A stretch of 64,000 nucleotides of DNA from Phorcus lineatus (taxonomy: Eukaryota > Mollusca > Gastropoda > Trochida > Trochidae), in contig OV121091.1 of the NCBI GenBank assembly GCA_921293015.1, positions 36,316,839 through 36,380,838 of the forward strand, in the 5' to 3' direction. This document shows, piece by piece, positions 14,301 through 55,341 of this stretch (position 1 is its first letter; each line of letters begins with the position of its first letter). Below the pieces are notes generated by a model. It did not search any database. It was given only the letters and a program-made list of their open reading frames with translations, and was not told the origin of the DNA. The position numbers and the translations under genes were made by a program.

Positions 14301-17300
14301 TCAAATCTTTCCATTTCCTGACAGGGAATATAGAAGAACTAATGGTGATTGCCCTTGACATACAAAAGAAAGGACTGGTGCAAAACCAACCCTTGAGTAC
14401 AAGGGAGACATCCACATAACAGAATGCAGCAATTGAGAAAGCAGAATTTTCAAGTTATCGTAAGATTTACTAACACACTTCTATACATTTCAAGATCATA
14501 TCAAATTCATGATAGCTATTTAAGAAGAGGGTTTACTTGTACCCATGATTTGTGAGGTATCGGTCAGCTGCCAGATCATCACAGTCTTATCATTAGAACC
14601 AGAGGCCAACATCTGGCCATCCAGGGAAAAGGCACAACTTGTAACATATCTGGAAAAGTCAGGAAATCATGAAAACAATCTTTATCTGCCAGAAAAGATA
14701 AACAAGGTAGATATGGCATCAATTTATGAACATCATAGCATTAAGGAATCATGACATTATGATATTTTTTTTTATTGCCCCCATCATCCACCCCCCCCCC
14801 CCCCCCAAAAAAAAGGGTACATGTTGAAAATAAACAGAGCAATAAAATACAGATGACAAATATTATCACGGATATTGATGCACATCAAAAAGGACACATG
14901 CAACAGGTTAGATGTTTTTATGATTTAAATTATGAATGGGGCTTATTTCGATGCAGAATATTTGCCATCCAATTTCTAACCTTTAAGATATTATACTATA
15001 TTATATTAATTAATTTGATGTATGAACTTTTAAAACTATACCTCCCTGAAACAGGTTGATCCTCTCTGAATACTTCTTCATAATATAGATTATGATTATG
15101 ATCATAACTTTTTCTTATTAGTAGAAGGAATTCAGTTTTCTTTACCTTTTGTGACCCTCTATTGTGAACATGGGAGTCCCTTTCATCTACAACACAAAGC
15201 AATGTATGACTGAAGGTGAAACCTACAATAATGATACTTGTACAGTAACATTTTGAATCAATAACTTAACAATTTGAAGCTATTCCAACATTAAAATAAT
15301 AAAACCTGTGTCCACAGCATAAATACTAATTAGTCTAGACTATTTTTTACATTTGAATTCCTTTCTTTAATATTTTAAGGCTGCAGCAACTGAAGCCAAT
15401 CCCACAGACAAGATAAACCTGGTAAGATTTGGTCAGAGCTGGAAACTTGTTGAGATTAGTCTCTGATTGGCACCAAAATAATAAAATTAGACTTTCAGAC
15501 TGGCAATTAAATCCTCCAACTTATCCAATACACTGTTACTAATGAAAATTCTGTAAAGACACTAACAGAGCAAGAACAATAGTCTCCTGTCTAAAACAAA
15601 ATTCCTATACTTACTGGGTTCCATAATCGAATAGTCTTATCAAGAGATCTGAAACAGAAAGTATCATCCTCTCAAATATAAGCACTTGCAAAACTCTTGG
15701 CGATCAACGTTCTTTTTATTTTCATTGTAGTTTATGACATAAACATAGATAGGACAATTGACTCCATACAATTACCTTGAACACCATATATTATGGAATC
15801 ATGTTTTCATTTAGGAACATAAAACCTGAAAAAAAAACCCTAAATATTTAATAAAGACGTTATCTTAGGAAATTGTCATTTTAATCCTTCATAGATTGAC
15901 AGTTAGTCGACCACTTTTACTAAGACAAGATGGCACTGAATCTACACAGAGTTTGTGTCAGAAAATAACAGAGTGAGGTGAGTTCTTACCCTGAGGCAAG
16001 AACGTCCCCCCTGGGGGAGAAGGTGAGGGCGAGAACACTGTCAGAGTGGCCTGGTAGAGTGTCCTTCAGCTTCAACAACACGTCTAGAAGAAACAGAAGG
16101 ATCAAAATACACAGTGTAGGAAATAGGGCTACATTATGTCTGCCTCAAAATGTCATTGTAATTTGTTCATCTTAAATCCATTTTTAAAGATCGATTTCTC
16201 AAAAATCTGAAGAAATGATTACCTAAATCAGTTTAAACTTCATGGACGACCCCTTTGTTGGATCATATATATGAGCTCAAAAATGGCCAAGCTATTTCTT
16301 AATAAATGTTGTAGCCAGGAACAATCACTGATTTGGTCTCTGAAACCAATTTTCGAATGGATCTAAAGACAACATGTTGAATTTGTATTTTACTTCACTG
16401 ATTGAATTTCTTTACTGAACCATTAACCAAAATATGTAATAGACAACCATCTCAGTTCCAACCTGTCTCTCATATAAGGTATCACACAGCTACCTTCAAT
16501 CCTAATATTGTCGTCACACTTCAAATCAATCAAATCACAATCTCATTGAAATGAAATCTAAATGCTCCACTACATTACGCGTGTAGATCTCACCAGGCTC
16601 CATTACTTGAGCTGTCAGGTTTGCCTCTGACATAATTCAAATCAGCCAATCAGCGAATTCGCCCCATAATCTATGGTGCAGGCGAATTGCATTTCGCTTG
16701 TACGCTTTTCAGATCTCGGAAAACAAAAACTTTCGACTGTTTTCCGAATGTTGAACTGCATAAATACCCGAATTAATGTATTTTATGTACGTTCGATTTA
16801 CCCTAGCTCAGTTTATTGGACAAACAAGTCAAATTGAAAGCTATGAAGTTATCTTTCGCAATGCAAACTCTGCATTCCTCAACGTTACCCTTTAGTAGAC
16901 CGTAACAATCAAAATGCTTATTCTGGAAACATATACGTTGAATAAACGTTTCGTCTTTTAGTTTGTAGTAATCATTGAATAATTTTAAATTTCGTGGAAC
17001 AAATTAACCATAAACATGCTGAGAAACCAAAACAACCAAAACATGTACAAAAACAAATAGTAGGTTTCTTAATAATTATACATTAGTAATATGCAACGTT
17101 TATATGCTAATGATATTGACCCTTGTTTCATCAAAGACTAAAATGTTATAACTAAATCTGCTGGGTTAAATGGTATTAAAGGGCCACAAAGTATGTTGAT
17201 ACAAATTAAAAAAAGGTGCCAAAAATCCATCTCGTTTAAAGATCCTTACATAATTTTTCATCAATTGTTTAGACCCCAAATAAGCATGGAAATCTAACTA

Positions 17301-20300
17301 ATTAGTAATGGTGTTTCCCGCGTCTATAAATAGATTGACTTTATTATTTTATTGTGCATAGCATTGTTGTCGTAGTTGGCTCCCATCCTTTTAACAAAGA
17401 TAACCACGTGGGGACGGAAAGGAGAAGCAGGATACAGTTAAAACGATGATAGACCAGAAGGGAGACAAGTTGGTCGACAAAAGGAAAGTCAAAACGGCGA
17501 AACACATTTATGATTTATTTGAAAGTCAAACTCGCTTTACTTTGAGTTTGATTCGTTTTAATATGGAAGGAACTCTTATAAACTTTTTGATTTCCATAGA
17601 GCAAGGCGAGATAATTAGCATAAACCCGTCTTGTGACAACTGAATCTATTATAATTTCTCAGTCTTCGACGAAACAAGGATCTTTTTAATTTGCATATGT
17701 AACGTGAATATGTTTTATATTAAATTAACAACAACAACATCCTTTTTTGTTTTGCAAGTTTTAGTCACCTTTTTGTGTAAACAAAATTATGGTTATTTCT
17801 TTTCACGAATTTCTAGTGCTTATAATATTTTAAGAAAAGAAATTGTAGTTGTTTATTTGTTATCACTAAAACCCGATCTTACGTAGTACACAGGAAAGGA
17901 AAATCCGCGTATTGACATCATAATTCAGTAGCGCGCGCTACTCGTGCGGGTGAAATATAATTTCACCAACTTGTCGTGGTATATATACTATTTCTCACAT
18001 ATCATGTTGTAGCTGAAACAATTATCTACCAATTGATATAATTTTTAGGTGTTTTTGAAAAAATGTTGTTTTAGAAACACTAACATACTCAATGGCCCTT
18101 TAATAGACATATGCAAATGACTTCAACTTGTTCTCTGTAAAATCGAAAATAAGAGTTTCAACTTCTACTTGCGGAATTACTTGCAAGCTGTTTGAAGGCT
18201 ATCAAGAGACGCACATTGTGATTGCTTAAAGGTATCTGCGGCAAGCCAATGAGATTTAGAGGTCAAACCGAAGCAAAGGTTAACCTAACGGCTTTAGTAA
18301 GAGAGCCTTGTGAGATCTATAATTTGCGTAACGTAGTGCAGCAATATAAGAATTCATTTTAATGAGATTGATCAAATCATTTCATTCCTCATTATGTGAA
18401 ACACCAGTATCAGTGAAGATGTCATTTCTTAGAAAGTAAAAGTAGAACTTTATAATTCAGACATTTTCATCAATTCTAATATGACTCCCCTGCCAACATT
18501 AAATTCATATTGACTTCATAAATCAAATCAAAGAAACCAACATCTCATCAAAACATTACCAGCAAAGATTTATTGTCTTATTTTGATCATTACAAAGACA
18601 AACAAAGCTTTTTTTTTCATCTATCCAAATCTATTTCTTGCCAATATCAATATTCTCCTTCATACATAAAATGAAAGAAACCATAATTTCATTAATAACG
18701 TTTAAAAAAATACAAGCAAAGACTTTATTTAGTAGCAGTAGTAGTAGTATGATATTTATATAGCGTTAGGTCCACAACACAGTCATGCTCTTTGAAAGTG
18801 AAATTCAGCTTTGTCATACAGAAATATACAGAGAAATTCAGTTTCTCGTTACAAAACTGAATCACACGAAATTCAATCACCAAGGAATCACACAGGCAAT
18901 TTCAATCACAAGGAATCAGAGACCCACTTTCAATCTCCACAATCAATGGAGCCAATGAAGAAGTCAGTGTACTGATCAGAATGAGAACTGGTCAGCTGCA
19001 GCCACTAGAACCAGCCTCCACTCACATCAACACTTCACCTCCAATCTCATGCCCATAATCAATCAAACAATTTCCTTTTATTCACGACTCAGTCTTACAT
19101 TCGGCTCCTCAAATCTTGGAGCTTATTATTGCCAAATCCGTTGAATAGTGGAGAGTTGTCTGAAAGTTCAGGGTTGAAGTCAATAACATGTTGTTTCAAA
19201 GGAATCCAGGATAAACAAATAATCATGCCACCAGTGATGTTGATAATTAGAATGAACATATGCATCCTATGTAATTTGATACCGGTAATCAATGTTTTAA
19301 TCAAATATCCTTTTTTGACTATTCAAATACTGACCGGTTTAGGTTAAGGGCGATGAAAAGATAATTGAAATTTACCATTAAAATCACCATTAAAATGAAG
19401 CTATATCATTATCAATAGGAAATTTTATACTTACAATTGTTTATATGAGGTTTTATCCTTATATGTATGAAGCTTTATCCTTATATGTATGAAACTATTT
19501 CATTGCTAATATGAGGTTTTATCCTTGTATATATATTAGGTTTTATCCTCTTTTATATATATGAAGCTTTATCCTTATATGTATGAAGCTTTATAATAAT
19601 TATTATGAAGTTTTATCTTTGCATATATATATGAAGCTTTATCATAATAAATACAAAGTTATTGATAAATTTTGCCCAGTCTAGTGACTGAACACACTGT
19701 GAAAACGAAAACTTTGCAATGTTACAAACATTCCTACATAATATGACTTCTTAAACTTGATCTTTAGTATGGATAGCACCTACCTTGTGATATATTAAAT
19801 GTGAGATAACAACAATGTGAAAGACTGTATCTGAATCTGACTGAATCTCGTGATATTAGAAACATTGCGGTACAGGGACTACTATAATGAAATTGACTTT
19901 ATGGATAGAACTTGTGATGTTATATGCATTGATAGATAATGGCCTCAACAATAGGATAGTCTAAACAGCACTTACTTTTCTTTCCTCACTATATATAACT
20001 AATCTTATTGTCTTCATATTCATAAGTCAAGGTAATTAGGACCGTACAAGTGCATCTTTTGTATTGATAATCAGAAAATACTTAACGATGTCACATTTAA
20101 TAACATTTTTATGAAACGATTGAGTGGTTTGGATAGATAACAAATTGCATTCATGACTTGCATAAAATTGTAATTAAACAGGACTGAAATAGTATTTTAT
20201 TTTTTACTTGTTGAATTATATCAAGGTAATCACAAGAAAATTGTTGATGCACTGCTTAATGATTGTGATGTCACGTCACGTCATGTCAATACGCGATGTT

Positions 20301-23300
20301 ATATTTTTAAAATAGCAGTATGTCCAACTTGCAAGTAATAAACCTTGTTATACATCGTATTACAACACTGCGAGATAATGACTTCTACCATGTGACAGTC
20401 TATTGCTCAAATTGCTTATATTAGAAATGTTGCGACATATTGACAATTAATATGGTTAGAAACTTGTGATGTTATAAACAATGATACGTAGTGGCCTCAA
20501 CAATAGACTGTTGGGCAATATCTTTTGGTTCCTTGCCATATATTACTAATGTTATTGTCTGCATGTTTATAAGTCAAGGTACTTAGGACCGTATAGCTAT
20601 TGTAAACAGAGTTACACAAGTTTTGCCTGCCTCTATGTAATAGACTATTCACTTGCAATTCCGTCATGAACAAACAAGATTAACCTGTCTGGAGGGTGGC
20701 TTGTGGACTCTACAAACATGATTGCTGACTTCAAACATTCACCTTTCCTTGTCAACATGACAAAGAGTGACCACATTTCTACCGTGATAATTGCATATTC
20801 TTACAATGAGTATCAATTACAATTTCTTCTTTCTTGATTTCATCTGGCAATATTTGTACTGTACTTGAGCGACAGGTATTATTATATTATTATTATATTA
20901 TTAGATTACAATAGATAATTTGCTGGAGTATGGTATGCTTTCTGATTTAAAGATTTGCTCCTGTTAATTAAAAAACATCATTCGAATAAGGGGAAAGTAA
21001 CCTAGTTAACAGTTTCAGTGAATCAAGACTGGAATTTGCCATACTTTCTTTGACTGTCAAAATAGTTTTTGAGTGATCCAATGTAAAATGCAAATATGAA
21101 CATTCCAGTGAGGAAACTTGAGTATGTATAACTCATCCATATCTAGTGTGTTCTAAGTTCTCATTGATAAATGAATTGAAAGCAAGATAATGCATGCAGA
21201 TACAGAAAAAAAAGCTATAAATCCACAGATATGTAGACTTCTCTATTGTATTTCTAGTGGTGTTTTGAATCTTTTCAAAGTTTGACAAATTGAAATTTCA
21301 AATAGAGAAACACAAAGCAACATACTGGGTGATCCTATATGGCCGGTGAAGACCCATAGCTTGATGAGATTGTCCTTACCACCGCTTGCCAGGAGAAAGT
21401 TTCCAACTGAAGCATTTGGATTGGCTGTAGAGAAAGAAAATAAATTATTCATTCGATTGTATGTGTAAACGTTAAAAATGTCTTCTGTCACAATATTTCT
21501 CCTGATCTCGAAAATGAACAAGGAGGCCATGATTAAAGTATCTGTATGTTACTGTTTTAATCTGTAAAGTACTTCCTTTTTTACAATTAGTTCCCTTTAA
21601 AATCATTATACAAATATTGATACCTTGACATGATTAATGGTTCATGATTAAATTTTCATTTCAGAAATCATAGCTTATGAAACAAACTAGGACATTGAAG
21701 ATAAACCATGCACACCAGTTAATGCTTATCATAACCTGCTAAATCAATTTGCCAAAAGCAAATAATTCACACTGGCCTACAGGAATCAAACCTAGTTTTA
21801 TGAGGGAAATATTCTGCCAATGGCAAGTTACTATATCCAAGAAAATTGTGATAGGTAAAGTCTGAATACCCCTACTTTGGGAGGCAAAGGGTTATTCCTT
21901 ATCCTGCCATGGGACGATCTCTCAGTTACATTCCCCAAAATCGGAGGGGATAAAACAATACCTGCTGATCCAAATTTGGGGGAGAATTCACAACAGCTGA
22001 CTCCGAGGTCATGTCCGTCAAGTTCATATGCCAACTCGCGGCCATGTCCAAACTTGGCATCCCAGACACGCAGATGTCCGTCGGTGCTGCCTGATATAAC
22101 AAAGTGACTGTCGGGGGTGAAGGCACACGCGGCCACCATCTCATCATGGCCAGAGAAGGATCTGGAAAATGAATTTTGGAATTTAGAAGCTACATTTAGT
22201 ATATTTGAGAACCACTGACATGAAATGCTAAAGTGAAAAATTTAAAATTGTGAATTAAAACCTCACCAAATGCTTCAGTGTCAGTATCACATGATTCTGA
22301 TCTATATACATGCTAGGTTTATCTCAAATCTACTTTTTGTCCATACTTGCAAAGTTCAAATGATTTGGGTATTTTTTAAAATCAAAATCTTATTTGAATG
22401 AATAATTAAACCAAAGTTTCATGTTTCATGTTCTTTTATGATCTGAAAGAAGGCCATGTAGGACCAGGGGCAGATCTGGGGGTGTTGCCGGGGGTAGGGG
22501 GGGACGGGTCGTGATAGGGCGGGGTACACACTTTTTTTTATCCCACTGTACAATGTATCTTTAAATATGTATTTTGATGTTTTGATAAATTTTCAGAAAG
22601 TCAAATGCAAAATCTAGAAGGTTTATGCCCCGGGATGTGTCATTGGTATATATAAAACATGTCTTATGAAGTTTTATCTGGTATCAAAATTAAAAAATTA
22701 TTTAATGGCTCAAGTGACGGGAACGAGTTACAAATTGTATATCATCTGTTAGAGGTTGAAGACTCAAATCCAACAAAAGCCATTTGATGGATCTCCTCAT
22801 CGGGCATTGTTCATTCCTTTGCATTAACTATAAAGAAGTCAGTCACCAAAATGCTCTGATACCAAATGTTTAACAAAATAGAGCCAGTGGCTACCATTAT
22901 TATTTATTTCATAAATCGTCACACGGTCATCACATAGCTGCTTTCATTTCATCAGCTTAAGACTGTGTACACATAGCCAGATGAGCTAAAAAGCAATATA
23001 TAATTGGTACCTTTCATAAAAACAGTATGATAAAACTGATTCAATTTTGTGATATGTGCTAACATGAAGTTTTAGTTATTTAAGGAACTTTGAAATATAT
23101 TTCAAATATTGCTTACTTAATTTTATAGACGAGCATTGATTTCTAAATACTCAAACAGAAATAGCCACTTGAATTTCTTTTCCACTTGAAGTGAATTGTT
23201 CCTACACTTCCATGACATATTCAACATCAATACAAACAATCCAAATGCACACACGTTGTGTAAAATTAGAAAAGTAATATATGTTTACAACTTTACATGG

Positions 23301-26300
23301 GTATCCAATTAAAAGACATATCATATTCTTTTTCCAAGACCAAGAATGACAAAAACATCTTCAGCGCAAATCAGAAACAAATGCTGATAACGATTAAGAC
23401 CAATACTGAATATAAAAAAACAATGTTTTCCTTCATGCACAAAAGCTATCCTGCATTGATTCAAGATATAAATAACTTCATTACTCACAGCTAATTTACT
23501 TATATCAACATATATCTCAAGAAAAATTGATCATGAAAGCAAACAGATAATGTCATGTGTATCAACTCTGTGACTATGATCACTTGCTTCTAGAGAATTT
23601 CAATATTGATAATTTCCGCCTGCCATTGATCTGGCTGTTACCGGGATGATAAACCTGCCTTGCCATGGGATATTGGCCCGCTGATCAATAACATCACTTA
23701 GTGTAACCTTCAGGGAGACGCTACGTCCTCATAGTTCACATGAATCAAGCTGTATATCACATACAACTGTCAACGTATTGATGTCTTTTATAGCTCTATA
23801 GCATCCTCCAGAAGTGATATGAACAAATATTTATTATTATTGAAGATAATCAAAGGGGAAAATAGTCATATAAGCAAACATTATATAGATACAATTTCTT
23901 ATGATGTTTCTTGATGTATATTTCTAAATTTCTCTAAAGGGCTAATTAGGGCATACCTGATATATTTCCAAAAAGCTACCGGGGTATTCAAATCTGTAAA
24001 CATTCTGATATTAGAGAATATGAAATATTTTCAGATGAAATTAATCTAGTTTTTAAAACATATTTAGTGTCATTGGCTCTGTATTTCATCAGCCTTCGTA
24101 TTGTTGATGTTCAAAACTACGACTCAAGGTGAAATACATCACCTAAGTGTCTTTGCATTAGACAAAATGTTTTATCATGAAATTTTAAGAAAATAAATAA
24201 AACTAAACATATAAAAATTTCTTAAATCATGAAACAAAATAGGAAACAGATTCTTCAACAAAAATAGCAGTTAAGGTGTAAGTCTACTTTTATTAATTTT
24301 CACATTTCAAATTCTCTCTGTGAGCTCTAAATGCATTTAAAGTATCATTTCTCACCAGCATCCTACCTTCATCTTCTGACTCCCCATTTTAACCATTTCA
24401 CAAAGCTTTAAAAAATGGTTAGCTTTTTTCAACCCTACCACACCTAATGAACCCTGCCAAATTAAATAATATAAAACCTAAGTTACAAGTTTGAGTCTTC
24501 ATGTCAGGAAAATATCAATCTTACAATATCAGCCTCCTATGCCAGTTGGTTCTGGAGATGAAGATTTTTTACGATTAAAGGGAAAATGTCATGAAAATGC
24601 GACACCCATATTCATCGTGGGGTGGGTGGGATGTTGGAATGTGGAACAGTCTCATAAGTACAATTTCGGATCAACGAAGTCCAAGCTTCATCATAAAATT
24701 TTACTGTAAAGGTTGCAGTGGTTTCTGAGGACAAGTAAAAATGTTAAATATTTTTGCCACTGAACGCCAGAAAATAGACCATGTCATAAACCCGCCTTAC
24801 CTTTACGGTCTGATGAGCTAAAGATTTGATAAAGTTTAATTCACAGACAATAGGTTAGAAACAAAATCTACAATTTATATTTTATTGGGCTTTAAGTTCT
24901 TGAAAAGATAAGATTTTCTTTCAATAATCTTAAGGGGCCATCAGGTCATTATGTCAGCACAAGTAAGCACCATTAGACAAAGAGTCTGGACAAAATTCTT
25001 TTATATTTCTAGGGCTGCATTGATTTGAGAAGAAGTTGAAACAAGTTGTTAACAAACAAATAGACATCATCATGCCTTACCATCACATAAGCACTTCAGG
25101 TTTTTCACGTCAGAAGAGCTAAAAATGTTCACATTTGTTTTGTTTGTACATGAGTAGCTCAGGGCAAGTAAAATTGTCTTACTTTTAATAGAGAGTTTGT
25201 ATCTCCATGGAAATATATAAGTTGAAACTAATATTTTTATGTAAAAAAGAGAGACGATTTGATAGACTCGTACCTGATTAATTTACGAGAGGCCACTTCC
25301 CAAAGGCACAAGGTGTTGTCATCCCCTCCTGACACTAGCAAGGAAGAATCAGGGGAAAATCTACAAACTCGAATTCCATTTTTGCTTGGATGTTGAATTA
25401 CCCCCACCTGGTCTCCTGTTTTCACGTCCCATAGAATTAGTTTACCGTCCGTTGAACACGAGGCTAGGGTTGTACCAAAAGGTGAAAACACACAACAGTT
25501 CACATAGAATGCATGCCCTAAAAGTGGTGATGCAGGGAGTTCACTAAAGTCATCCGTACTCCATAGTCTGACAGTTTTGTCTCCTGACCCTGTTGCGAGT
25601 TTATCACTGCTGAATGCAACACAGTTAACATCAGAACTGTGTGCAGTCAATGTATGAATCAAACTTGCAACCATATTCGCCATTACTTGTGACCTGAAAC
25701 AGATATGAACATATTTTGTAAGGATTAGGAATTAATTACATAATGAACTATTAGTTAAATGAAGTATGAGAGTAACAGTGAGATATTGTTTAGTTCTGCT
25801 TGGGTAGTATTTCAGGCATTAGCAGTGTGTCAAGTATGAGACAAAGTTAACAATTATAAGCTAAATTCATGAAATATAAAGGTTAAGGTGCCCTATAAAA
25901 CCTCACACTTTTCTACTTAGGTAACATAAATTGAATCATTAGAAGGCAGACAACCTCAAACTTAATCCAAATCTACAAAAGATCTAAAGACTTTGTTCAC
26001 TTGAATAATTGTTCCAAAACTGAAACATCACACTGCCATTTTCACATGAAATGATGAATAGGTATCCATTAAGCACAAACAAAACGGTTTGTTTGACATT
26101 TAACGTTCACTTTCAACGCAAGAGTTTGAAAAAAGTCTGGATATCCGAGTTTTACAGACATAAGAGCAGTTCTGGTAAACAACGTGCCTCACAAACAACA
26201 CAAGTACTGTGTATTGATCTCCTATCAGAAGCAGATTGGCGTCCAACTCCCACTGTCACTCGTAGAGAGTGGAGGGTACAACAAGTTTGGTAAAATAAAC

Positions 26301-45000: not shown

Positions 45001-48000
45001 AAAATGTTTTCACTGTTTGTTACATGTCCAGTGTAATGCACTCTTGATAAAACAATTGAATGATTTTCGATCTAGTAATGAAATGTGATATATCATTAAT
45101 ATCAAGTTTGATCAGCAAGATTGTGTGTGTTGCAGGTAGTGACGATAATGTAGACCAGCTGAAGATCCAGCAGGCTATGCTAAGGAGGCAAGAACTCCTA
45201 GACAGAATCAGAGTGAGTACCACTGTCAGGCGGGACATGCTTATATGAGAATACGTTGAGGGTGATCCTAATTGGAATAATACTCAATTATCATCTATGT
45301 TAATGTATGCAATTAATGGATGTTATTGGTAATAATGTAAGTTTTAAACTGTTTAATTATGTGTATGATATAACAATTAAATTTGTCAGAGCTTTTTAAA
45401 TACTTTAATTAAAGATGGAGCACAGTTGTGTAGTGGTTAGCATGCTAGTCTCTCACGCCAGAGACCCGGGTTCGAATCCCGGTGGAGACACAACAAATTT
45501 GTGACTTCGGTCTCATCCTGTGTTGTGTCCCTGGGCAAGACACTTCATCCACTTTGCACTCAGTTCACCCAGCTGTACAAATGGGTACCTGATCAAGGGG
45601 GAAGTACGGACCTATACGGTCGCGCGGAGCGCTTGTTAATCGGCTGCCCGAAAATACTATCCCTCTATGGTAATAATACTCATGGCGCTTTGAGCATGCT
45701 TTGTCATGGATATAAGAATGCTATTATTATTAAAAAAAATTTGTTGAAACAAAATTTTATATATGTTTAAGGTGTTTTTTAATTATGATCATAGAAGCTA
45801 AAGGTATACTCATAACTGAATTTCGCATTAATAATTGATATTTGTTTTGACAAAATCAGCCTGCATATAGAAAGTTTGGATGTTTTGATGTCTTAACACT
45901 GAATGACTACTCATGACAGTTCTAAATTCTAAATAGGTCTCAATACCTTACTGTCAAATACAAGTGTAGGCCTTCAAAGAGATATGTCAATCAAATCGAA
46001 ATCGATACATGTTACGACATGCATGTTTGATATAATCGAATCTTCAGTAATACGACTCCTACCAAGCGGTTCCCGATCAAAAGATAATCGATACGTTTGT
46101 AAGATCCATTTTACCAGTGTTTAGTCAAACGATTGTAAAAAGATCAAGAAATACAAAAAATACAAATTCTATGTATCTTCAACTCGGTCACGGCAAAGAA
46201 ATTAGACGTTTTGGTGTAGAAACCATTGCAGTTATCATGAAACTTCTAAGATGATTTTGAATCTAAAACGTTTATGGTTTGAAGTAAAACGAAATCTAAA
46301 TTAAACTGAACAACGCCAACTTTAGGGTTTCGAAGTTGTCGATCCAGCAGAAAATGTCAAAGGTTCACTTACGTAAACAATTGGGCGATTGTGCTCTCAG
46401 AAGTAAAGAGTAAAAGTGGGAAGAGGGGGTAGGGAGGTCCAAAGCCTGTGACCTTTAATCCTATGCATTAAAACCTTATTTTTTCAGCAAGAACAATACG
46501 CAGAGCTCAACCGGCCCCGTTCATACTCGGAAAGACGTCGCTTCACCCCCACGCCTCTTCCTCCTCCCTCCCGCCACTCGCTACCCGATCTCCACCGGCA
46601 CTACCACTGTCACAACGGTCACTCCAATCACGTCACCAAGACCGTCAGAAGTACGTGCATTATTGTATACCATTATACTTATTATATCGTCGTAGTATGA
46701 TAATAATTCTCAGAGGAAATCAGAAGTACGAGTAATCAGCTGACTAAATTACGCACTTTTAAACATACACAATATGACATGATCTATTTTTTACTTGAAT
46801 TTCAATCAATTTCATCTTGATTTTTAAATTTAATTTCCTTTTTATATTTACACCTTAACAATACTTCAGTTTTAGCACGTTATTAATCTTAGCATTTTAT
46901 TCATTAACGGTAGTTTTATTTATGTTTTTATGAAAGTAATGATTAAACAAGATTAGTTATGCTCGTTGATAATAACCATACCATTTTCACCAAAGATACA
47001 AAATCCAGAATTATCTTTCAAGAAGTTAAATCATAGTAGTAAACAATAGTTTACCAAAGAAATTTTCAAGTCTATATTTCAAACAAATATCTATCGGGAC
47101 TTACTGAAGGCAGACCTTTCAATTTACATTCGGACAAGCAAATAGCGCTTCGAAAACATTGCTTGCGAAGAAACCTTAACATTTCTAATGACATCCCCTT
47201 TGCTCAGTAACAGGAGACCCCCCAGGAAGTGCTCCCAACCCCGACGGGGACAAGCCCCTTGGTAGGAGTCAGTTGTGAATACTCTCGGAGTGCTCTAACT
47301 CTAGGGCTCAAACTTGGGTCAAACCTCATAACACTAACTGCTGCACATAGCCAGTCGAATACTATCTGAGTGCTCTCCTATACTAGGGTAGTCCTGCACT
47401 GTGACAATATCTAATGTTAAAACTTGTTCAAAGTCTATATATTATAACTATTGTAGTCGAATCTCGATATCTCTCAGAACTTGAAAAATCCAGTTTAAAG
47501 ATAAACGAGGTAAGGAAAATTTAATTAAATCTGGTTTTTTACCTTAGTGTTAACGATGTGTACAAATTGGCAAAATGACGTTTAGTCACACTTTGGCAAA
47601 ATGACGTTTAGTCACACAAAGATTATTCAATTATCTGTTTACAAGACATCCACTTGGCAAAAGATGATATAAATCTCATGAGAAATGAATGGGGTCTCCA
47701 ATGTATCTTAGCTCCTTTTAAATCTAACGCTAGGGGAGTAGCCATACTGTTTAATAACAATGTTGATCTAACCATTCACAGAACTATTGAAGACGAAGAT
47801 GGAAATTTTATTATTGCTGACATAACTGTAGAAGACAAACGGTTTACACTGACAACTTTGTATGGCCCCAACCAGGATGATCCTAACTTCTATATCAAAC
47901 TTTTTGAAAAAATATTTTCTCTAGACAATGAGTCTTTATGCATTGTGGGTGACTGGAATCTCGTTTTAGACCCAACAATTGATTTAGAAAATTATAAACA

Positions 48001-51000
48001 TTTAAATAACCCAAAAGCAAGAGATGTTGTTAGAATAAATTTGGAAAAATATGATCTCATAGATGTATGGAGGGAAATGAATAAACATAACAGAAAATTT
48101 ACATGGTGGAAAAAGAATCCCAGGAAACAGGCCAGACTTGATTTTTTCCTTATCTCTCAAGATATTTTCGACATAACTTTGGACTCTGATATCTTACCAG
48201 GTTATAAATCTGACCATTCAGCCATATCATTAACTTTATCAAATTCTATTAACCAAGAAAGAGGTAAGGGGTATTGGAAATTTAATACTTCTCTCTTACT
48301 CCACTCTGAATACAGTACTTTAGTCAAAGATATCCTGAAAGAAACTGTTGAAGAATACTCTGATACTAAATCATGTAACTCAAATATTAATGGACAAGAT
48401 GATAAAGTTAAACTTACAATTAGTGATAATTTATTTTTGGAAACATTTCTTATGAAAGTAAGAGGAAAAACAATTTCTTATGCTTCTTTTTTGAAGAAAG
48501 ACAAAAAAAATAAAACTATAGAATTGGAAGAAAAAATTAAAGAATGTGAAGACAATATTAGACAAGATTTTCAAAATATGAGTGAATCCATGCTTTCTGA
48601 ACTTACAAAATATAAGACGGAATTGGAGCAAATAAAGGAAGAAGAACTAAGAGGCATTCAGATTAGAAATAGAATAAGATGGTATGAAGAAGGTGAAAAA
48701 CCAACAAAATATTTCTGTAATCTTGAAAATAGAAATTATATTAGCAAAGCAATAAATAAAATTGTTACTGATAAAAACGAGGAAATTACAGACAGTAACT
48801 CTATTCTAGATCAACTGAAATATTTTTATAAAAAACTTTATTCCCTCAATAATGATCTAGAAGTAGATATCACTTTAGATAATGTTGTTACACCAACATT
48901 GAACTATGAACTAAGGGAAGAACTGGAAAAAGATATTAATATGGAAGAAATTACTTTCGCAGTGAGAAATATGAAAAACAATAAAAGTCCAGGAATAGAC
49001 GGTTTCCCAATTGATTTCTTTAAATTTTTTTGGAACGATCTCAAAGGATGGATTTTAAGATTTGTAAAAGAGGTATTCGTCAAAAGTGAACTATCTTTTA
49101 CCATGAAGAGGGGGGTTATTACTTGTATACCTAAAGCAAATAAAGACAGAACTCGCCTGAAAAATTGGAGACCAATTACTCTTCTAAATGCTGTCTATAA
49201 AATAATAAGTACATGCATAACCAACCGCCTTAAAAAGACTTTGGATTTACTAATACATGGAAACCAGACAGGTTTTATTCCAGGCAGAACTATTAGTGAG
49301 AATACAAGATTGTTATATGACATTATGTTTGAAACAAAAGCTAGAAATTTCTCTGGTTTACTCTTATTAATCGACTTTGAAAAGGCTTTTGACACAGTTT
49401 CAAAGGATTTTATTAATAGGGCCCTTAATAAATTTGGATTTGGTCCACAAATTATACAATGGATTAATATTTTAACATACCAAACTAGTTCATGCGTGAT
49501 ACAAAATGGCCATTTATCTGACTTCTTTAATAATGAAAGGGGTTGTAGACAGGGGGACCCTCTGTCGCCATATCTTTTCCTCTTTGTGGCTGAAATCTTA
49601 GGTTGTATGATAAGAAATAATGATAGGATCAAAGGTATTATCCTTGATGGAAAGGAATACAAATTAGGTCAATATGCAGACGATGCACAATTATTTCTTG
49701 ATGGCACTGAAGACAGTCTATATGCAGCTATTAACACACTTAATACTTTTTATAAAATGTCAGGTCTGAAAATAAATATAGACAAGACGAAGGCAATTTG
49801 GATTGGCTCAATGGCAGGTAGTAAACAAGGAATATGTACTGACCTTAAAATTGAATGGCATAATGGGGAGTTTGAAGTACTGGGAATAAAATTCACTCCA
49901 AATCTTGCTGATTTATGGGTAATCAATACAAAGAAAAAGCTTGAAGAAATAAACAGACTACTAGCAACATGGAGAAAAAGAAACCTAACACTGATAGGTA
50001 AAATCACAGTCATAAAATCATTAGCCCTTTCCAAATTGGTACACATTTTCAGCTCACTCCCCAATCCCCAAAACGACTTTATTTATTCTCTTGAACAAAT
50101 CTTTTTCAAATTTATATGGAATGATAAACAAGATAAGATAAAAAGAACTACTTTAAAAAGACTAAAGTCAGAGGGGGGATTGGGTATGGTTGATTTAAAA
50201 ACATTTATGGAAGCTTTAAGATTATCTACCTTGAGACTATATTGTAAAAAATCAACAGATTGCAACCCTAGTAGTATACCTTATGATGATATCTTAAAAT
50301 ATGGAGCAAACATAGGTACAATCTTACATACTAAAAACCCCTTTTGGAAGGATGTTATTGATGCGTGGACAAAATACTGCAAAACACTTAATGCTGAAAG
50401 GGATAATATTGATGACTTGCTTGCGGAGCCTCTATGGCTTAACCATAATTTCAAAGACCCCTATCACGTTATCAGGAATTGGGCGAATAATGGTATATTG
50501 ACTATAAAAGACTTGTGTGATGATCAAGGTTTCATATCCTTTGATAAATTACAATCAAAATACAAGATTAGAGGTACAATATTGGACTATAATTATTTAC
50601 TGCACATTTTACCAACTGAGTGGAAATATTTTATTAAATGCAGAAACAACATTCCTATTTATAATTTCTTTACCAGTATGTATCAAAGAAATGTCTTGAA
50701 ATCCACTAAAGGCTCTAGATTCTTTTACGATAAACTAATATCCAAAAACGAAAAGCTTGATATCTGTAACAAGTGGGAAACGATTTTTAAGGATTCGAAA
50801 TTCGACTGGGATATCATTTTCAATGTATACCGACGTGGAATGAAAGATGTCAAACTTATTGATTTCCAATATAGATTCCTTCTAAGAATTATTTTTACTA
50901 AAAGAGAATTGTTGAGAATGCATCTTGTAGACAATGACATGTGTAATTTTTGTAATGATGCTCCTGAGAGCATTTGCCATGTTTATTGGGAGTGTAGTGT

Positions 51001-51400
51001 GACACAAAAATTTTGGAATGATCTGGAAATTTGGATAAATAACTATCAACAACCAAAAATAACAATTTCAAAATTTATTATTTGGTTTGTTACATCTAAT
51101 AATAATGGTTTGATAAATCAAATCATTGTCTCGGCAAAGAAATTCATTAATTTATGTAATATAAAAAAATCAATTCCAAACTTCAATAATTACAAAAAAG
51201 TTCTGTCAGATATTTTCTCTGTGGAAAAATTTATATCTCAAAGAAACAATGAAATTAGCAAATTTAATAAAAAGTGGAAATCACTCATCCCAATTTTTAA
51301 GAATTAGTTAATAAGTTGATTTAGTATTTAATCTACCTTGTCCAATGTACGGCATTTACCCCCACTCATTGTACACAGACTTTGTAACCCTTGGGAACCA

Positions 51401-51435
<35 letters not shown>

Positions 51436-54400
51436 TGGGTCAAACCTCATAACACTAACTGCTGCACATAGCCAGTCGAATACTATCTGAGTGCTCTCCT
51501 ATACTAGGGTAGTCCTGCACTGTGACAATATCTAATGTTAAAACTTGTTCAAAGTCTATATATTATAACTATTGTAGTCGAATCTCGATATCTCTCAGAA
51601 CTTGAAAAATCCAGTTTAAAGATAAACGAGGTAAGGAAAATTTAATTAAATCTGGTATTTTACCTTAGTGTTAACGATGTGTACAAATTGGCAAAATGAC
51701 GTTTAGTCACACTTAGTCTGTGGTTAACATTAACCATTGTGCACAAGCATAGTTATAGTTCACGGTCACAATAGCAACCAATAGGCACAATAGCAACTCC
51801 CCGATACAAACCGTCTCACAAAATCGCTCACTGACTGTGCATTAGTGTTTGGGTTTGAATTGTATTGAAAACATGTATTCCTTTCTCATACATTACACGT
51901 TACATTACAGTTTATCATTAAAGTTAGGACGTTGCTATTTGCTATCACCCCTTCTACGTCTGACGTCCACGTTTAGACTAGATGGCTGGCCAATTTTCTG
52001 AATGTCGCAATCTGTTGTACCTTCGATACCTTTCCATGCTTTTGTATAAAGCATAACTGAATGGATTCTAAAGGGAAATTCTTGTCCATAGCATAACGTT
52101 TTCTTCAGTAAAAATACTGTGTATCAATGTTCTGTGCGTCAAATGCCAAGTTTTGTTGTACAAGACATAACCGAAAATAAGTTATCCATAAGATATGTTC
52201 ATATCGTGATTCAGAGATAAAAATGCGATAATTGTTTTATTCTTCTCAGGACTAAGGATTTCGATATCAGGTTCAACGTTCAAATGAACCCAGAAACATT
52301 ATCATCCGATAAACTCATACTAACATTTTTAGAAATGTCTTCAACATTCAATTGTTGTCCTGTTATGTTGCAAATTGACATTACTCGAACACTATTCTGT
52401 TGTCAATATACACTTTTATTTTATGCAAAAATAAGAATACATTCTAAAAGTTAAAAAGATGTAATGCAATATTCTTTTCAGAACCAGATATGTCTCAAGT
52501 GAAACACGTCATAGAGCACAAGTTCAGACAGCCTGAGGCACAAGTGCAGACCTACCAGCTACCCCCTATAGCCAGTCCCCCAGCCATCATCCAACCCACA
52601 ATCAGCCCCCAGTACACAGCCATCCAGTCCCCGCCCCCTATCATCACAACCGTCCCGGCCCACATACAGACGCTGGACTTCGGTCAGAAACCGGCAGAGA
52701 AGGGGAGCTGGTTTAACAAGGGCGGTAAGAGCAGTAATCGTTTACGATTGTGATGCTAATTACCTCATTGCGCCTTTAACTGCGTGAATAAAAATATTGA
52801 TAGTCACATTTATAAAAATATGTATATTTATTATTTTAATCGACACTGATAAGAAATTGTTTAAAGGTTTATCGTCAACGTTATTTAACTTTATTTGTCA
52901 ATAACCTTTGAAGTAACTCGGTGAGACTCAATCAGTACGAAATAATGGTAAATGTAAATGTAAATACTTCGAGAGTTCTATCATCCTAATGTTATCGTTA
53001 GAGGTACAGGTAGCTTAGTAAACTCAATAAGCTCTCATTTATTATATAGAACCTTCAAATGTTTCACGCTGAATTCAATATTCCAATGAAACCAATGTCA
53101 ATTCCTTGTAGAATTTATGGATATGATGATGATGCAAAATGCTCAGATGCATCATATGGCGATGCAGCAGCTTATGGTTAAAAACCTCAACCCCCAACAA
53201 CCTCCGGCTGTAGTGGCACCCATGTATGGTGGAGCACCAGTAAGTCAACAACCTCTTTACATATTTTGTAGATTTCATGGACATGATGATGTTCCAAAAT
53301 GCTCAGATGCACCATATGGCTATGCAGCAACTAATGGTTAAGAACTTAACACCACAACAACCGCCAGCTTACCCTGTGACGGCACCAGTAGTTCCTGCTG
53401 AACCTTACGTAGTGAGTTAATATCTCCTTCTTCAGCTAACTGTGTGGCTTCTCAGGTGTCTTCTTCGACATCGAGTTCTCCTCCTTGCCCGTGGTTTCAC
53501 TCCCCAAAGTCTTCCCTATTCATTTCTTCTTTGACATACTTGTGTCTTGTGTTCTTGTCAGTTTTTCAGTTTGTGGTGCTACAGTTTCTGCTTAAAGATT
53601 CTGTTTATTGCTTTGTGCCGGTATCTAAAAGATGATAAATTAATTGATACAATATTCTACATACTAAACCTTCAGAAGTACGTTAAGGCATATAGTCCTT
53701 ATACATTGTTTTTGTATTATAAATAATTTACTTTGTGCTGACGACACGGTGTTTGCTAAAGTTTGATCGTTCAGTGCTGAATTGAACGTCTACTTAGAAA
53801 ATAGTTAATGGTGAACCTTGTGTACATAGATGCCGAGGCCCGTCTACCACCACCACTACAGCGCCATGGCGGCCCCTGCAGCACCAATGATGTACCATCA
53901 CTCACAGATGCCCAACTATGACTACGGGTAAGTTGACTTCCATCAAATGCATCTAACAAACATTTAATAACAAACATTGGACCTGGTAGCTGTCTTTTAA
54001 GGTCATCTGTTACTTCTGTTACATTTTCTTACATAAGATAATGTAACGTCAATATACTCTCATACTAAATCATATCACATTATGATATATCGCTGTGATC
54101 CCTAACCCTTAATATTTTTCTTCATGTAGGATATAGAAACATAGATAGTTATTAACAATCATAATGTACCAATTGCTAATAGAATAAATGCCAATTTAAT
54201 AATTATAGAAATGAGGGCAAACCAATATAGCAGCATTATCATACAGTGTTATTTGCTTTTAAATGTAAACTCTGTTGATCTTTGCTTTATCACAACGTTC
54301 TAATACAATTGCATTAAAAAAACATTTTAGTTGCTTGTTAAATAAAAGTCTAATATGAGAAAAGAACATACATGTAGAAACATCATTATGCTCTTTACAG

Positions 54401-55341
54401 TGCTTATACTTAGCAACAGATTATGCTTAATTCATGTCTTCACTATCTATGTTTAGTTACGTTCTCTGCAGAACTTCTGCTTTCATACGTCGCTAAATCT
54501 TGCTACAGTATCATTAACATCACACTCTTACTGTTTCAACTGTTTCCTCTATGACAAATTGTATAAGGAAGACTGATATATCGGTACATTTCCTGTGCAA
54601 ATAATAGATGAATGTCTTTACTTTGTTTATAAAGCAGTAGTTTCGTCTCTGAGACAGTCAATTATCGAATAAGAATAACTTTCACATTGGACGATGACTA
54701 TTGAAAAACATATGTCAGATAAAGGGTCTGAATATATTTTATCTACAACAAATTGTAAGAATATCACGACCCATATAGTACTTTTCGTCATTACTTTGAT
54801 GTGATAAATCACTATAGTTACGTTATTATTTACAGGGGTGGTTTTTATCCATTTCAGTAAAGGGTCACGATTTGATCGATCAGGTGAGTGATGACGTCAT
54901 TAAATGCACTAATCATGTTTATTTCTTCCAGGTGTTCAAATGCATGCTCAGTTTCTCTCTTGCATGAGCTTACGATATGCCTATCCTGCATGAACTTTTT
55001 TTCTTTTCCGAAATCAGATAAAATGCATTTTCAAATCAAAGACATTTACTTGCAAAAAACGTACAGAAGTCTTGTCTTAATTATAAAGGTTCATCATATG
55101 GAATTCTGATATTTTTTCGAAATGGTAAAAGATGCTTTACTTCAAAAATTAATTCAATTTGAGAGAAGAAATAAAATGGATATCTATGGCTGGAAATAAG
55201 TATGTATTAATATGTGCCTGGTGGTGGTTTCGCCTTCCCCGTCTATGCTTATATACCTACCTATTTCTTATTACAGCGCAAGTATACAGTAATCCCAGTA
55301 TGAAGTATGACGACGGATCCAACTACTATGTCTACCACTGA
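30603..55341 (+). CDS. C21orf58-like protein (DUF4587 family)
   Basis: Phase-consistent coding exons: 30603-30671, 43923-43974, 45136-45212, 46488-46650, 52482-52724, then either 53112-53239 or 53272-53411, then 53830-53927, 54858-54883 and 55277-55341 (TGA). The product is 306 or 310 residues. Order of parts: an N-terminal helical stretch (MTRLRMRMVQQ, KLANERDRLQQ), a second helix (LRRQELLDRIREQYAEL), a Pro-rich block with PPAIIQPTI, the DUF4587 core with the QNAQ motif (about residues 210-213), a His/Tyr/Met-rich segment (VYHHHYSAMAAP), and a Tyr-rich C-terminus. This order matches what I recall of human C21orf58. The molecular function is unknown. It is transcribed away from WDSUB1. Confidence 0.88.
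34773..35064. repeat. 31-bp tandem repeat, about 9 copies
   Basis: Unit core TAATTGAATATAATACATAA repeated with a 31-bp period and few substitutions. Confidence 0.95.
38861..38949. mobile_element. Minimal palindromic element of the 16538 TIR family (89 bp)
   Basis: It begins CAATCTCATTAAAAT and ends with the inverted counterpart ATTTTAATGAGATTG. The arms match over about 25 bp with one mismatch. The left half also shares CTGCACTACGTTACGCA with the terminal repeats of the Mutator-like element at 16538-18370. No target duplication is clear. Confidence 0.7.
39031..39068. repeat. GATA microsatellite
   Basis: Nine tandem GATA units in C21orf58-like intron 1. Confidence 0.95.
42361..42479. mobile_element. 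Short inverted-repeat MITE (about 118 bp)
   Basis: The left end reads GGGTGCCCTTTCACAAAGCC and the right end is its imperfect complement (GCTTTGTGAAAAGAGGCCC). The inner part also pairs (TTAAGGTAACC with GGTTAACCTTA). The structure is that of a foldback MITE; target duplication was not resolved. Confidence 0.6.
43414..43471 (+). promoter_or_regulatory. Possible alternative first exon of the C21orf58-like gene
   Basis: AACATGGCGGACAC resembles a YY1-type start element. A consensus donor (CCGAG|GTAAGA) follows at 43471, and the next acceptor is exon 2 at 43923. Frames opened by the ATGs here do not join exon 2 in the coding frame, so such a transcript would need to start translation at the Met in exon 3. 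This is inference only. Confidence 0.25.
43923..43974 (+). CDS. C21orf58-like exon 2
   Basis: 52-nt exon between acceptor TTTATTTCAG and donor TCCA|GTAAGT, phase 0 to phase 1. It encodes KLANERDRLQQRPSSVS, continuing the N-terminal helix. Confidence 0.82.
45136..45212 (+). CDS. C21orf58-like exon 3
   Basis: 77-nt exon (acceptor GTGTTGCAG, donor CAGA|GTGAGT) encoding QLKIQQAMLRRQELLDRIR, a charged helix corresponding to the RRRDLLQRLRE segment I recall from human C21orf58. Confidence 0.87.
45419..45745 (+). mobile_element. tRNA-Glu-derived SINE
   Basis: The head is tRNA-Glu-like with an A box (TAGTGGTTAGC, 45431-45441) and a perfect B box (GGTTCGAATCC, 45469-45479). The acceptor stem does not pair, so it is not a functional tRNA. 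A central block (TGTCCCTGGGCAAGACACTT) resembles conserved SINE core domains of invertebrates. The tail ends with (ATT)n and poly(A). It sits in intron 3 of the C21orf58-like gene. Confidence 0.85.
46488..46650 (+). CDS. C21orf58-like exon 4
   Basis: 163-nt exon (acceptor TTTTTCAG, donor CAGAA|GTACGT), phase 0 to phase 1. It encodes EQYAELNRPRSYSERR, then a Pro-rich and His-rich stretch (LPDLHRHYHCHNGHSNH). It is notably richer in C than the surrounding introns. Confidence 0.87.
47311..47593. repeat. Left copy of 283-bp direct repeat flanking the LINE
   Basis: This block recurs as 51432-51714 with a single visible mismatch (GGTTTTTT against GGTATTTT) and no length difference. The two copies abut the 5' junction and the poly(A) tail of the LINE, so they are best read as a very long target site duplication. 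Confidence 0.9.
47593..47617. repeat. 25-bp duplicated flank at the LINE 5' junction
   Basis: The 25 bases TTGGCAAAATGACG... at 47567-47591, the end of the left flank, are repeated at 47593-47617 directly before the LINE sequence starts. The right flank has only one copy. This looks like templated filler from the insertion event. Confidence 0.85.
47618..51433 (+). mobile_element. 5'-truncated L1-clade LINE with poly(A) tail
   Basis: Non-LTR retrotransposon, about 3.8 kb, in the sense orientation in intron 4 of the C21orf58-like gene. It starts abruptly inside the endonuclease domain, runs through an intact reverse transcriptase frame, and ends with a short 3'UTR, AATAAA (51400-51405) and a pure A tract of about 31 bases (51403-51433). 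The intact frame and nearly identical flanking repeats indicate a recent insertion. Because it lacks ORF1 and the endonuclease N-terminus, it should be unable to move on its own. Confidence 0.93.
47654..51307 (+). CDS. LINE ORF2: endonuclease (N-truncated), reverse transcriptase, zinc knuckle
   Basis: 1217 codons without interruption. The frame is already open from 47612, encoding ICLQDIHL, so the TTG at 47654 is only a formal start. The apurinic-type endonuclease lacks its first strands but keeps GDWN and the SDH motif (residues about 186-188). The reverse transcriptase has the first catalytic Asp in LIDFEKAFD (about 574), RGCRQGDPLSPYLF, and the YADD box (674-677). Near the C-terminus a C-x2-C-x8-H-x4-C cluster starts at Cys 1097. 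In L1 elements this protein nicks DNA and reverse-transcribes its RNA at the nick. The usual QET of the endonuclease is QDI here. Confidence 0.95.
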   Translation: MAKDDINLMRNEWGLQCILAPFKSNARGVAILFNNNVDLTIHRTIEDEDGNFIIADITVEDKRFTLTTLYGPNQDDPNFYIKLFEKIFSLDNESLCIVGDWNLVLDPTIDLENYKHLNNPKARDVVRINLEKYDLIDVWREMNKHNRKFTWWKKNPRKQARLDFFLISQDIFDITLDSDILPGYKSDHSAISLTLSNSINQERGKGYWKFNTSLLLHSEYSTLVKDILKETVEEYSDTKSCNSNINGQDDKVKLTISDNLFLETFLMKVRGKTISYASFLKKDKKNKTIELEEKIKECEDNIRQDFQNMSESMLSELTKYKTELEQIKEEELRGIQIRNRIRWYEEGEKPTKYFCNLENRNYISKAINKIVTDKNEEITDSNSILDQLKYFYKKLYSLNNDLEVDITLDNVVTPTLNYELREELEKDINMEEITFAVRNMKNNKSPGIDGFPIDFFKFFWNDLKGWILRFVKEVFVKSELSFTMKRGVITCIPKANKDRTRLKNWRPITLLNAVYKIISTCITNRLKKTLDLLIHGNQTGFIPGRTISENTRLLYDIMFETKARNFSGLLLLIDFEKAFDTVSKDFINRALNKFGFGPQIIQWINILTYQTSSCVIQNGHLSDFFNNERGCRQGDPLSPYLFLFVAEILGCMIRNNDRIKGIILDGKEYKLGQYADDAQLFLDGTEDSLYAAINTLNTFYKMSGLKINIDKTKAIWIGSMAGSKQGICTDLKIEWHNGEFEVLGIKFTPNLADLWVINTKKKLEEINRLLATWRKRNLTLIGKITVIKSLALSKLVHIFSSLPNPQNDFIYSLEQIFFKFIWNDKQDKIKRTTLKRLKSEGGLGMVDLKTFMEALRLSTLRLYCKKSTDCNPSSIPYDDILKYGANIGTILHTKNPFWKDVIDAWTKYCKTLNAERDNIDDLLAEPLWLNHNFKDPYHVIRNWANNGILTIKDLCDDQGFISFDKLQSKYKIRGTILDYNYLLHILPTEWKYFIKCRNNIPIYNFFTSMYQRNVLKSTKGSRFFYDKLISKNEKLDICNKWETIFKDSKFDWDIIFNVYRRGMKDVKLIDFQYRFLLRIIFTKRELLRMHLVDNDMCNFCNDAPESICHVYWECSVTQKFWNDLEIWINNYQQPKITISKFIIWFVTSNNNGLINQIIVSAKKFINLCNIKKSIPNFNNYKKVLSDIFSVEKFISQRNNEISKFNKKWKSLIPIFKN
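51432..51714. repeat. Right copy of 283-bp direct repeat flanking the LINE
   Basis: Starts at the end of the LINE poly(A) tract and matches 47311-47593 base for base except one position. After 51714 it continues as unique intron sequence. Confidence 0.9.
52482..52724 (+). CDS. C21orf58-like exon 5 (Pro-rich)
   Basis: 243-nt exon (acceptor TTCTTTTCAG, donor GGGCG|GTAAGA), phase 1 to phase 1. It encodes VKHVIEHKFRQPE, a Pro/Ile/Gln-rich stretch (LPPIASPPAIIQPTI, PPPIITTVPAHIQ) and GSWFNKG. The PPAIIQ segment parallels human C21orf58. Confidence 0.9.
53112..53239 (+). CDS. C21orf58-like exon 6a (DUF4587 core, alternative copy A)
   Basis: 128-nt exon (acceptor TTCCTTGTAG, donor CACCA|GTAAGT), phase 1 to phase 0. 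It encodes EFMDMMMMQNAQMHHMAMQQ, then LMVKNLNPQQPP and VVAPMYGGAP. QNAQ is the signature of DUF4587. It is a tandem duplicate of 53272-53411 and appears mutually exclusive with it. Confidence 0.88.
53272..53411 (+). CDS. C21orf58-like exon 6b (DUF4587 core, alternative copy B)
   Basis: 140-nt exon (acceptor ATATTTTGTAG, donor ACGTA|GTGAGT), phase 1 to phase 0. In phase 1 it encodes DFMDMMMFQNAQMHHMAMQQ and LMVKNLTPQQPP, nearly the same as copy A, then a different tail (YPVTAPVVPAEPYV). Most base differences from copy A in the core are silent. If spliced after copy A it would be read in phase 0 and hit TGA at its fifth codon. Confidence 0.86.
53830..53927 (+). CDS. C21orf58-like exon 7
   Basis: 98-nt exon (acceptor GTACATAG, donor TACGG|GTAAGT), phase 0 to phase 2. 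It encodes MPRPVYHHHYSAMAAP and MMYHHSQMPNYDY, corresponding to the His-rich part of human C21orf58. Confidence 0.85.
54836..54883 (+). CDS. C21orf58-like exon 8 with two possible acceptors
   Basis: Using the acceptor TTTCAG at 54857 gives a 26-nt microexon (54858-54883) encoding KGSRFDRS, with donor TCAG|GTGAGT, in phase with the last exon. Using the upstream acceptor TTTACAG at 54835 instead reads GGGFYPFQ and then stops at TAA (54858-54860), giving a short C-terminus. Both acceptors have pyrimidine tracts. The microexon route is favoured because the downstream frame then reads on sensibly. Confidence 0.6.
55277..55341 (+). CDS. C21orf58-like terminal coding exon
   Basis: 65-nt coding part after acceptor CTTATTACAG. 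It is read in phase 1 as AQVYSNPSMKYDDGSNYYVY, His and TGA. The Tyr/Asn-rich tail suits the preceding exon. AATAAA signals follow at 55805-55810 and 56038-56043. Confidence 0.75.

Follow-up and report, generated by a model that had tools for sequence, protein, structure and literature searches.

We examined a 64,000-nucleotide (nt) window of contig OV121091.1 of the gastropod Phorcus lineatus, and all coordinates given here are positions in that window. On the plus strand lies a gene carrying a DUF4587 core, a domain of unknown function according to its Pfam entry, in which the reading of splice sites and frames reveals two near-duplicate neighbouring internal exons, here called A and B. The parts of the gene model are listed below, with slashes marking exon borders.

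52482..52724, plus strand: E2, the upstream exon; 78 open codons and one further base, acceptor TTTTCAG/, donor /GTAAGA; ends in phase 1
53112..53239, plus strand: exon A, 128 nt; covers the first half of DUF4587, with the QNAQ core; starts in phase 1 and ends in phase 0
53240..53271, plus strand: A-B gap, 32 nt; GTAAGT...TTGTAG
53272..53411, plus strand: exon B, 140 nt; exceeds A by 12 nt and carries the other version of the DUF4587 core; likewise starts in phase 1 and ends in phase 0
53830..53927, plus strand: E4, the common downstream exon; histidine-rich stretch YHHHY, starts in phase 0 and ends in phase 2
54858..54883, plus strand: E5, a probable small exon of 26 nt; restores the frame to E6, with a competing acceptor at 54836
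55277..55341, plus strand: E6, probably the last coding part; ends in TGA and, joined through E5, gives the full products

Exon anatomy and the DUF4587 core

Exon A is bordered as TTGTAG/AATTTATGG...GGAGCACCA/GTAAGT and exon B as TTGTAG/ATTTCATGG...CTTACGTA/GTGAGT. E2 holds a candidate start codon at 52490, and its 3' boundary at 52724 (AAGGGCG/GTAAGA, phase 1) splits a codon that the first two bases of A or B complete, giving Glu or Asp; both exons end at a codon boundary. A sequence-only reading of this stretch had placed the two exons at these coordinates, each running from phase 1 to phase 0, with a gap of only 32 nt between the donor of A and the acceptor of B. All positions were checked and agree, so that the anatomy and the frames can be taken as established from the sequence. 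The remaining introns of the gene model measure 387, 418, 930 and 393 nt, against the 32 nt of the A-B gap.

Joined through E5, the gene yields full-length products of 183 (A form) and 187 amino acids (B form). Three C-termini are possible in the region 54836-55341, where E4 may be joined to 54836, to 54858 and on to 55277, or directly to 55277, and only the second of these gives the long tail. The gene's 3' end is less sure because the first and third junctions yield short C-termini; moreover, the competing acceptor at 54836 outscores that of E5 at 54858 (8.84 versus 7.0). These and all other splice-site scores rest on general consensus weights, and the yTnAy branch-point motif used below is likewise a general consensus. 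Exon B contains a second possible donor at 53388 (CCA/GTAGTT), weaker by eye and with no computed score, which can be aligned with the CCA/GTAAGT of exon A and also keeps phase 0. The gene model takes the donor at 53411, and a donor shift of 24 nt may have lengthened the tail of exon B (53376-53412).

The DUF4587 label can be trusted for the core but is provisional where the whole protein is concerned. Each exon by itself passes the 27-bit gathering cut-off of Pfam PF15248 (A, 31.3 bits; B, 35.4 bits; 33.4 and 34.1 bits, respectively, in the genome scan), matching profile positions 9-38 (A) and 8-42 (B). In contrast, the spliced products fall under the cut-off, at 18.8 (A) and 24.1 bits (B) for the proteins and at 20.9 and 24.4 bits for the spliced domain alone, a lower score that may reflect correction for composition bias, the sequence being rich in Met, His, Pro and Gln. 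Whereas the core of each single exon thus matches the profile of DUF4587 proteins, Pfam searches with E4 to E6 alone, which hold the second half of the domain, or with E2 alone gave no DUF4587 match. As an informal control, two hand-typed scrambles of similar composition were searched, and neither matched DUF4587. One of them matched UreE_C (E 0.01, 16.5 bits, under the UreE_C cut-off), which shows that weak matches can arise by chance from sequence of such biased composition. In translation, QNAQ is present in both A and B, and HHH in E4; we take these two motifs to be those of the family's description. Of the two exons, B is the slightly better match to the family profile; in the genome scan, however, their scores lie less than 1 bit apart, and we therefore leave unassigned which copy is ancestral. 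An amphipathic-helix reading of the core was also tried and is unsupported, its helical moment of 0.026 being equalled or exceeded by 98% of shuffles.

An old duplication with both copies under selection

The repeat formed by A and B is 104 nt long, with 84% identity and a spacing of 160, and begins 6 nt upstream of each exon, at the common TTGTAG acceptor; within the window, the A protein retrieves B at E 7.3e-17 (tblastn). The sequence-only reading had described almost identical cores with different tails, and this is what is found: the first 33 residues differ at three positions only (Glu/Asp in the codon split with E2, Met/Phe and Asn/Thr), after which the proline-containing tails (A, 10 residues; B, 14 residues) diverge. 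It had further proposed that most base differences in the core are silent and that this points to selection on both copies. The counts bear this out, as 13 of the 32 whole codons differ, 11 of them silently and two with a change of residue (Met/Phe and Asn/Thr). In NG86 terms, 11.5 of 14.2 synonymous sites are changed, against 4.5 of 81.8 nonsynonymous sites (about 5%); by degeneracy, six of nine fourfold and five of 13 twofold codons differ.

A simulation restricted to synonymous substitutions reached 11 changed codons at 20 to 30 substitutions and a plateau near 13, on a small sample. When 16 substitutions were placed neutrally, none of 20,000 simulated copies had so few nonsynonymous codons; in a deliberately lenient half/half model, where half of the changes fall on a constrained copy, the fraction of copies as conservative as the observed pair was 0.00155. 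Together with the E value given above, the neutral simulation puts the resemblance of A and B well outside what chance would give. Synonymous sites near saturation, with only about 5% of the nonsynonymous ones changed, indicate an old duplication after which both copies were kept under selection at the protein level. Their relative age and the selection on both are established on this basis.

It might be that a single exon is in use and the other is a dead or dying duplicate. Of the gene's five scored donors, those of A and B do indeed rank lowest, below the other three. However, near-saturated silent sites with nonsynonymous change in only two of 32 codons are not expected under drift, as both simulations indicate, and both copies keep their frames, phases and splice sites. 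We therefore regard a dead exon as quite unlikely.

The gene occupies a single locus, as established by searches of the assembly (957,807,699 bases in 74 contigs). Among three candidates scored, only A and B matched DUF4587 at E ≤ 0.001 genome-wide, and no DUF4587 match was obtained in 14 control genomes. The 1,449-bp region is present once, at 100% identity, and the 187-residue B product has five genomic matches at E ≤ 10, each an exon of the same gene (E2, A, B, E4 and E6). A third or decayed copy could not be recognised in the window by tblastn, where the other matches, at E 0.36 and above, were read as chance, and no third copies, paralogues, retrocopies or second haplotype were seen in the assembly among the best candidates, which were the ones scored. 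Nor were relatives found among plasmids or viral contigs, which hold few or no animal genes, or among solved structures, which hold few, so that this says little on animals; the sole row from the Protein Data Bank (E 1.3) was rejected as chance.

These searches also bear on the idea that the pair stems from a collapsed assembly, a haplotype artefact or two neighbouring genes. Misassembly can by itself create tandem similarity, but the divergence (84% identity, silent sites near saturation) far exceeds that of alleles, the region occurs only once among the contigs, and E2 and E4 are each single in both window and genome. An artefact of this kind is extremely unlikely.

Close splice sites and conflicting frames

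When the possible exon combinations (A, B, A and B together, neither, or the gap kept) are read through the gene model, a full-length frame is obtained with A by itself and with B by itself, but with none of the others. As the sequence-only reading had anticipated, joint use of A and B hits a TGA at the fifth codon (Ile-Ser-Trp-Thr-stop after A), and reading through the gap also meets a stop, which is located inside exon B. These stops lie 249 and 194 nt upstream of the last junction, respectively, and messages with A and B joined or with the gap retained are accordingly expected to undergo nonsense-mediated decay. Omission of both exons shifts the frame to a stop 6 nt before the end of E4, with a 108-residue product that lacks the domain; since this stop is just 32 nt upstream of the last junction, the form that skips both exons may escape decay.

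The pair thus shows several of the features by which mutually exclusive exons are recognised: adjoining homologous internal exons of similar length and equal phases, each compatible with E2 and E4, and, at the sequence level, no productive outcome from including both or skipping both, save that the skip product may escape decay. The equal phases, together with an acceptor and a donor on each exon that fit the same E2 and E4, also speak against the possibility that A and B belong to separate transcripts with their own starts or ends, for example with a promoter of B's own. The gene model runs from E2 to E6 with uncertain terminal exons, which leaves some room for such transcripts, but we hold them to be very improbable.

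The four splice sites of A and B rank within the top 12% of the window's GT or AG sites, those of exon A being somewhat stronger than those of B at both ends. The only yTnAy motif in the 100 nt before B is TTTAC at 53256..53260, whose adenine at 53259 is separated from the donor of exon A by 20 nt and from exon B by 13 nt; upstream of B, the AG-free stretch measures 25 nt. The steric limit given in the literature is about 50 nt from donor to branch point (PMC7969005, PMC5740500, as excerpted), a value set on human, that is mammalian, exon pairs, and with a gap of 32 nt a steric block of the joint use of A and B is a reasonable expectation. Were the branch point of B to lie inside exon A instead, it would be unusable for splicing A to B. 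Wherever it lies, the donor of A and the acceptor of B should compete for space.

The same stops and the same gap have to be set against a further alternative, in which A and B are included together on purpose, or the gap is retained, so that decay-targeted messages tune the amount of protein. The positions of the two stops upstream of the last junction would suit such a role, and in human frame-conflict pairs, reads joining the two exons occur in 83 of 377 clusters (PMC5740500, as excerpted). On the other hand, the 32-nt gap makes A-B splicing unlikely, and although decay tuning could coexist with mutually exclusive use, by itself it would not preserve the amino-acid sequence of B. We consider it improbable as the explanation of the pair.

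Very probably, A and B are a mutually exclusive exon pair that arose by an old tandem duplication and is enforced by both steric crowding and frame. The sequence-only reading had proposed mutually exclusive use, and it is supported in that only A alone or B alone gives the full-length frame and both copies have long been under selection. In the scheme that we propose, one internal exon would have been duplicated in tandem to give A and B, and either A or B, never both, would be spliced between E2 and E4, producing two full-length proteins with the remainder in common. Crowding would act as a first lock, with A's donor, B's branch site and B's acceptor all falling within or beside 32 nt; for this reason, U1 at the donor of A and U2 at the branch site of B should not both assemble. 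The frame would act as a second lock, whereby joining A to B or retaining the gap would lead to premature stops and nonsense-mediated decay. The choice of exon would presumably be regulated by cell type or stage, with exon A, having somewhat better sites, as the likelier default. We infer from these features that both exons are spliced in vivo and that crowding operates.

Several observations weigh against this interpretation. Unlike their donors, the acceptors of A and B do not score lowest in the gene, E4 having a weaker one. The yTnAy motif stands at the usual distance for only one of four acceptors (E4, 22 nt); since the candidates for A lie at least 46 nt away and those for E2 59 and 64 nt away, the scan is unreliable here and the branch-point evidence is soft. 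Very short introns occur in some eukaryotes. Decay may fail to clear the message that skips both exons, and the age estimate is coarse, the core being 32 codons only. Finally, no RNA-structure signal for exon choice was detected in five duplex scans and one 341-nt fold of a single sequence: in the scans for docking/selector complementarity, 17 to 77 of 100 shuffles were equally good, and the local fold reached -77.3 against a shuffle mean of -78.5. RBFOX-type TGCATG motifs are likewise absent near A or B, their occurrences within 52482-55341 being confined to the intron between E5 and E6 (54941, 54961 and 54987).

Known systems, possible function and the rest of the window

Tandem exons chosen singly by crowding and by frame are both already well known devices. 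In the excerpts of the cited papers, crowding-enforced pairs include alpha-tropomyosin (as cited in PMC3585155) and OGDH exons 4a/4b (PMC7969005), which A and B would resemble in that the donor of the first tandem exon is too near the branch site of the second. They differ in gene family, and crowding is deduced here from the sequence; since the whole A-B gap measures 32 nt, it needs no displaced branch point. Among 629 human mutually exclusive clusters, 377 are described as showing frame conflict and 57 possible steric interference (PMC5740500, as excerpted). The pair studied here is also of the frame-conflict kind and, unlike these clusters, would combine both devices, in an unstudied family and as judged from the genomic sequence alone. 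Exon 10 of the oyster alternative oxidase is similar in that a tandem exon duplication leads to two protein variants, but there, according to the excerpt, the exons are terminal, an alternative acceptor is used and the longer message holds both copies (PMC5589949). Paired alternative exons in the DUF4587 family were not found among the literature matches listed, which comprised titles and abstract openings, and the term DUF4587 itself occurs in none of the 5.39 million papers searched. Within this scope, the result agrees with the sequence-only reading, which knew of no earlier report of such a pair in the family.

That two versions of the core were kept apart to near silent saturation suggests that the lineage needs two forms. 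The near-frozen core of 33 residues, with its three differences, against the free tails shows what to mutate first, and the 32-nt spacing provides a compact natural test of how near splice sites exclude each other. The A and B forms may share the function of the core and differ in partners through their tails. The human protein C21orf58 is presumably a DUF4587 member. It appears among ciliary candidates with prior experimental validation (PMC11317154) and is described as acting in liver cancer by way of STAT3 (PMC11022693), both as stated in excerpts. It is conceivable, if on balance doubtful, that the pair represents a switch of ancient origin, shared across the lineage, in a DUF4587 protein of the ciliary type, with two first halves of the domain, tails that direct it to different partners, and a 32-nt spacing that was itself selected because it enforces the choice.

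Elsewhere in the window, an unbroken frame of 1,231 amino acids of the retrotransposon type of long interspersed nuclear elements (LINE) runs on the plus strand at 47612-51307, about 1.2 kb upstream of E2, with an RVT_1 match and a zf-RVT match under the zf-RVT cut-off. It is followed by a run of 31 A at 51403-51433, and a perfect two-copy tandem repeat of 26 bp (47567-47617) stands just before its start and overlaps it. An open frame of 334 amino acids on the plus strand (622-1626) has no Pfam match at E 0.1 and carries an Asp-rich stretch near its C-terminus. On the minus strand, WD40 repeats and a SAM domain are encoded by exons at 13450-25731, which belong to a gene that we take to be probably WDSUB1-like.
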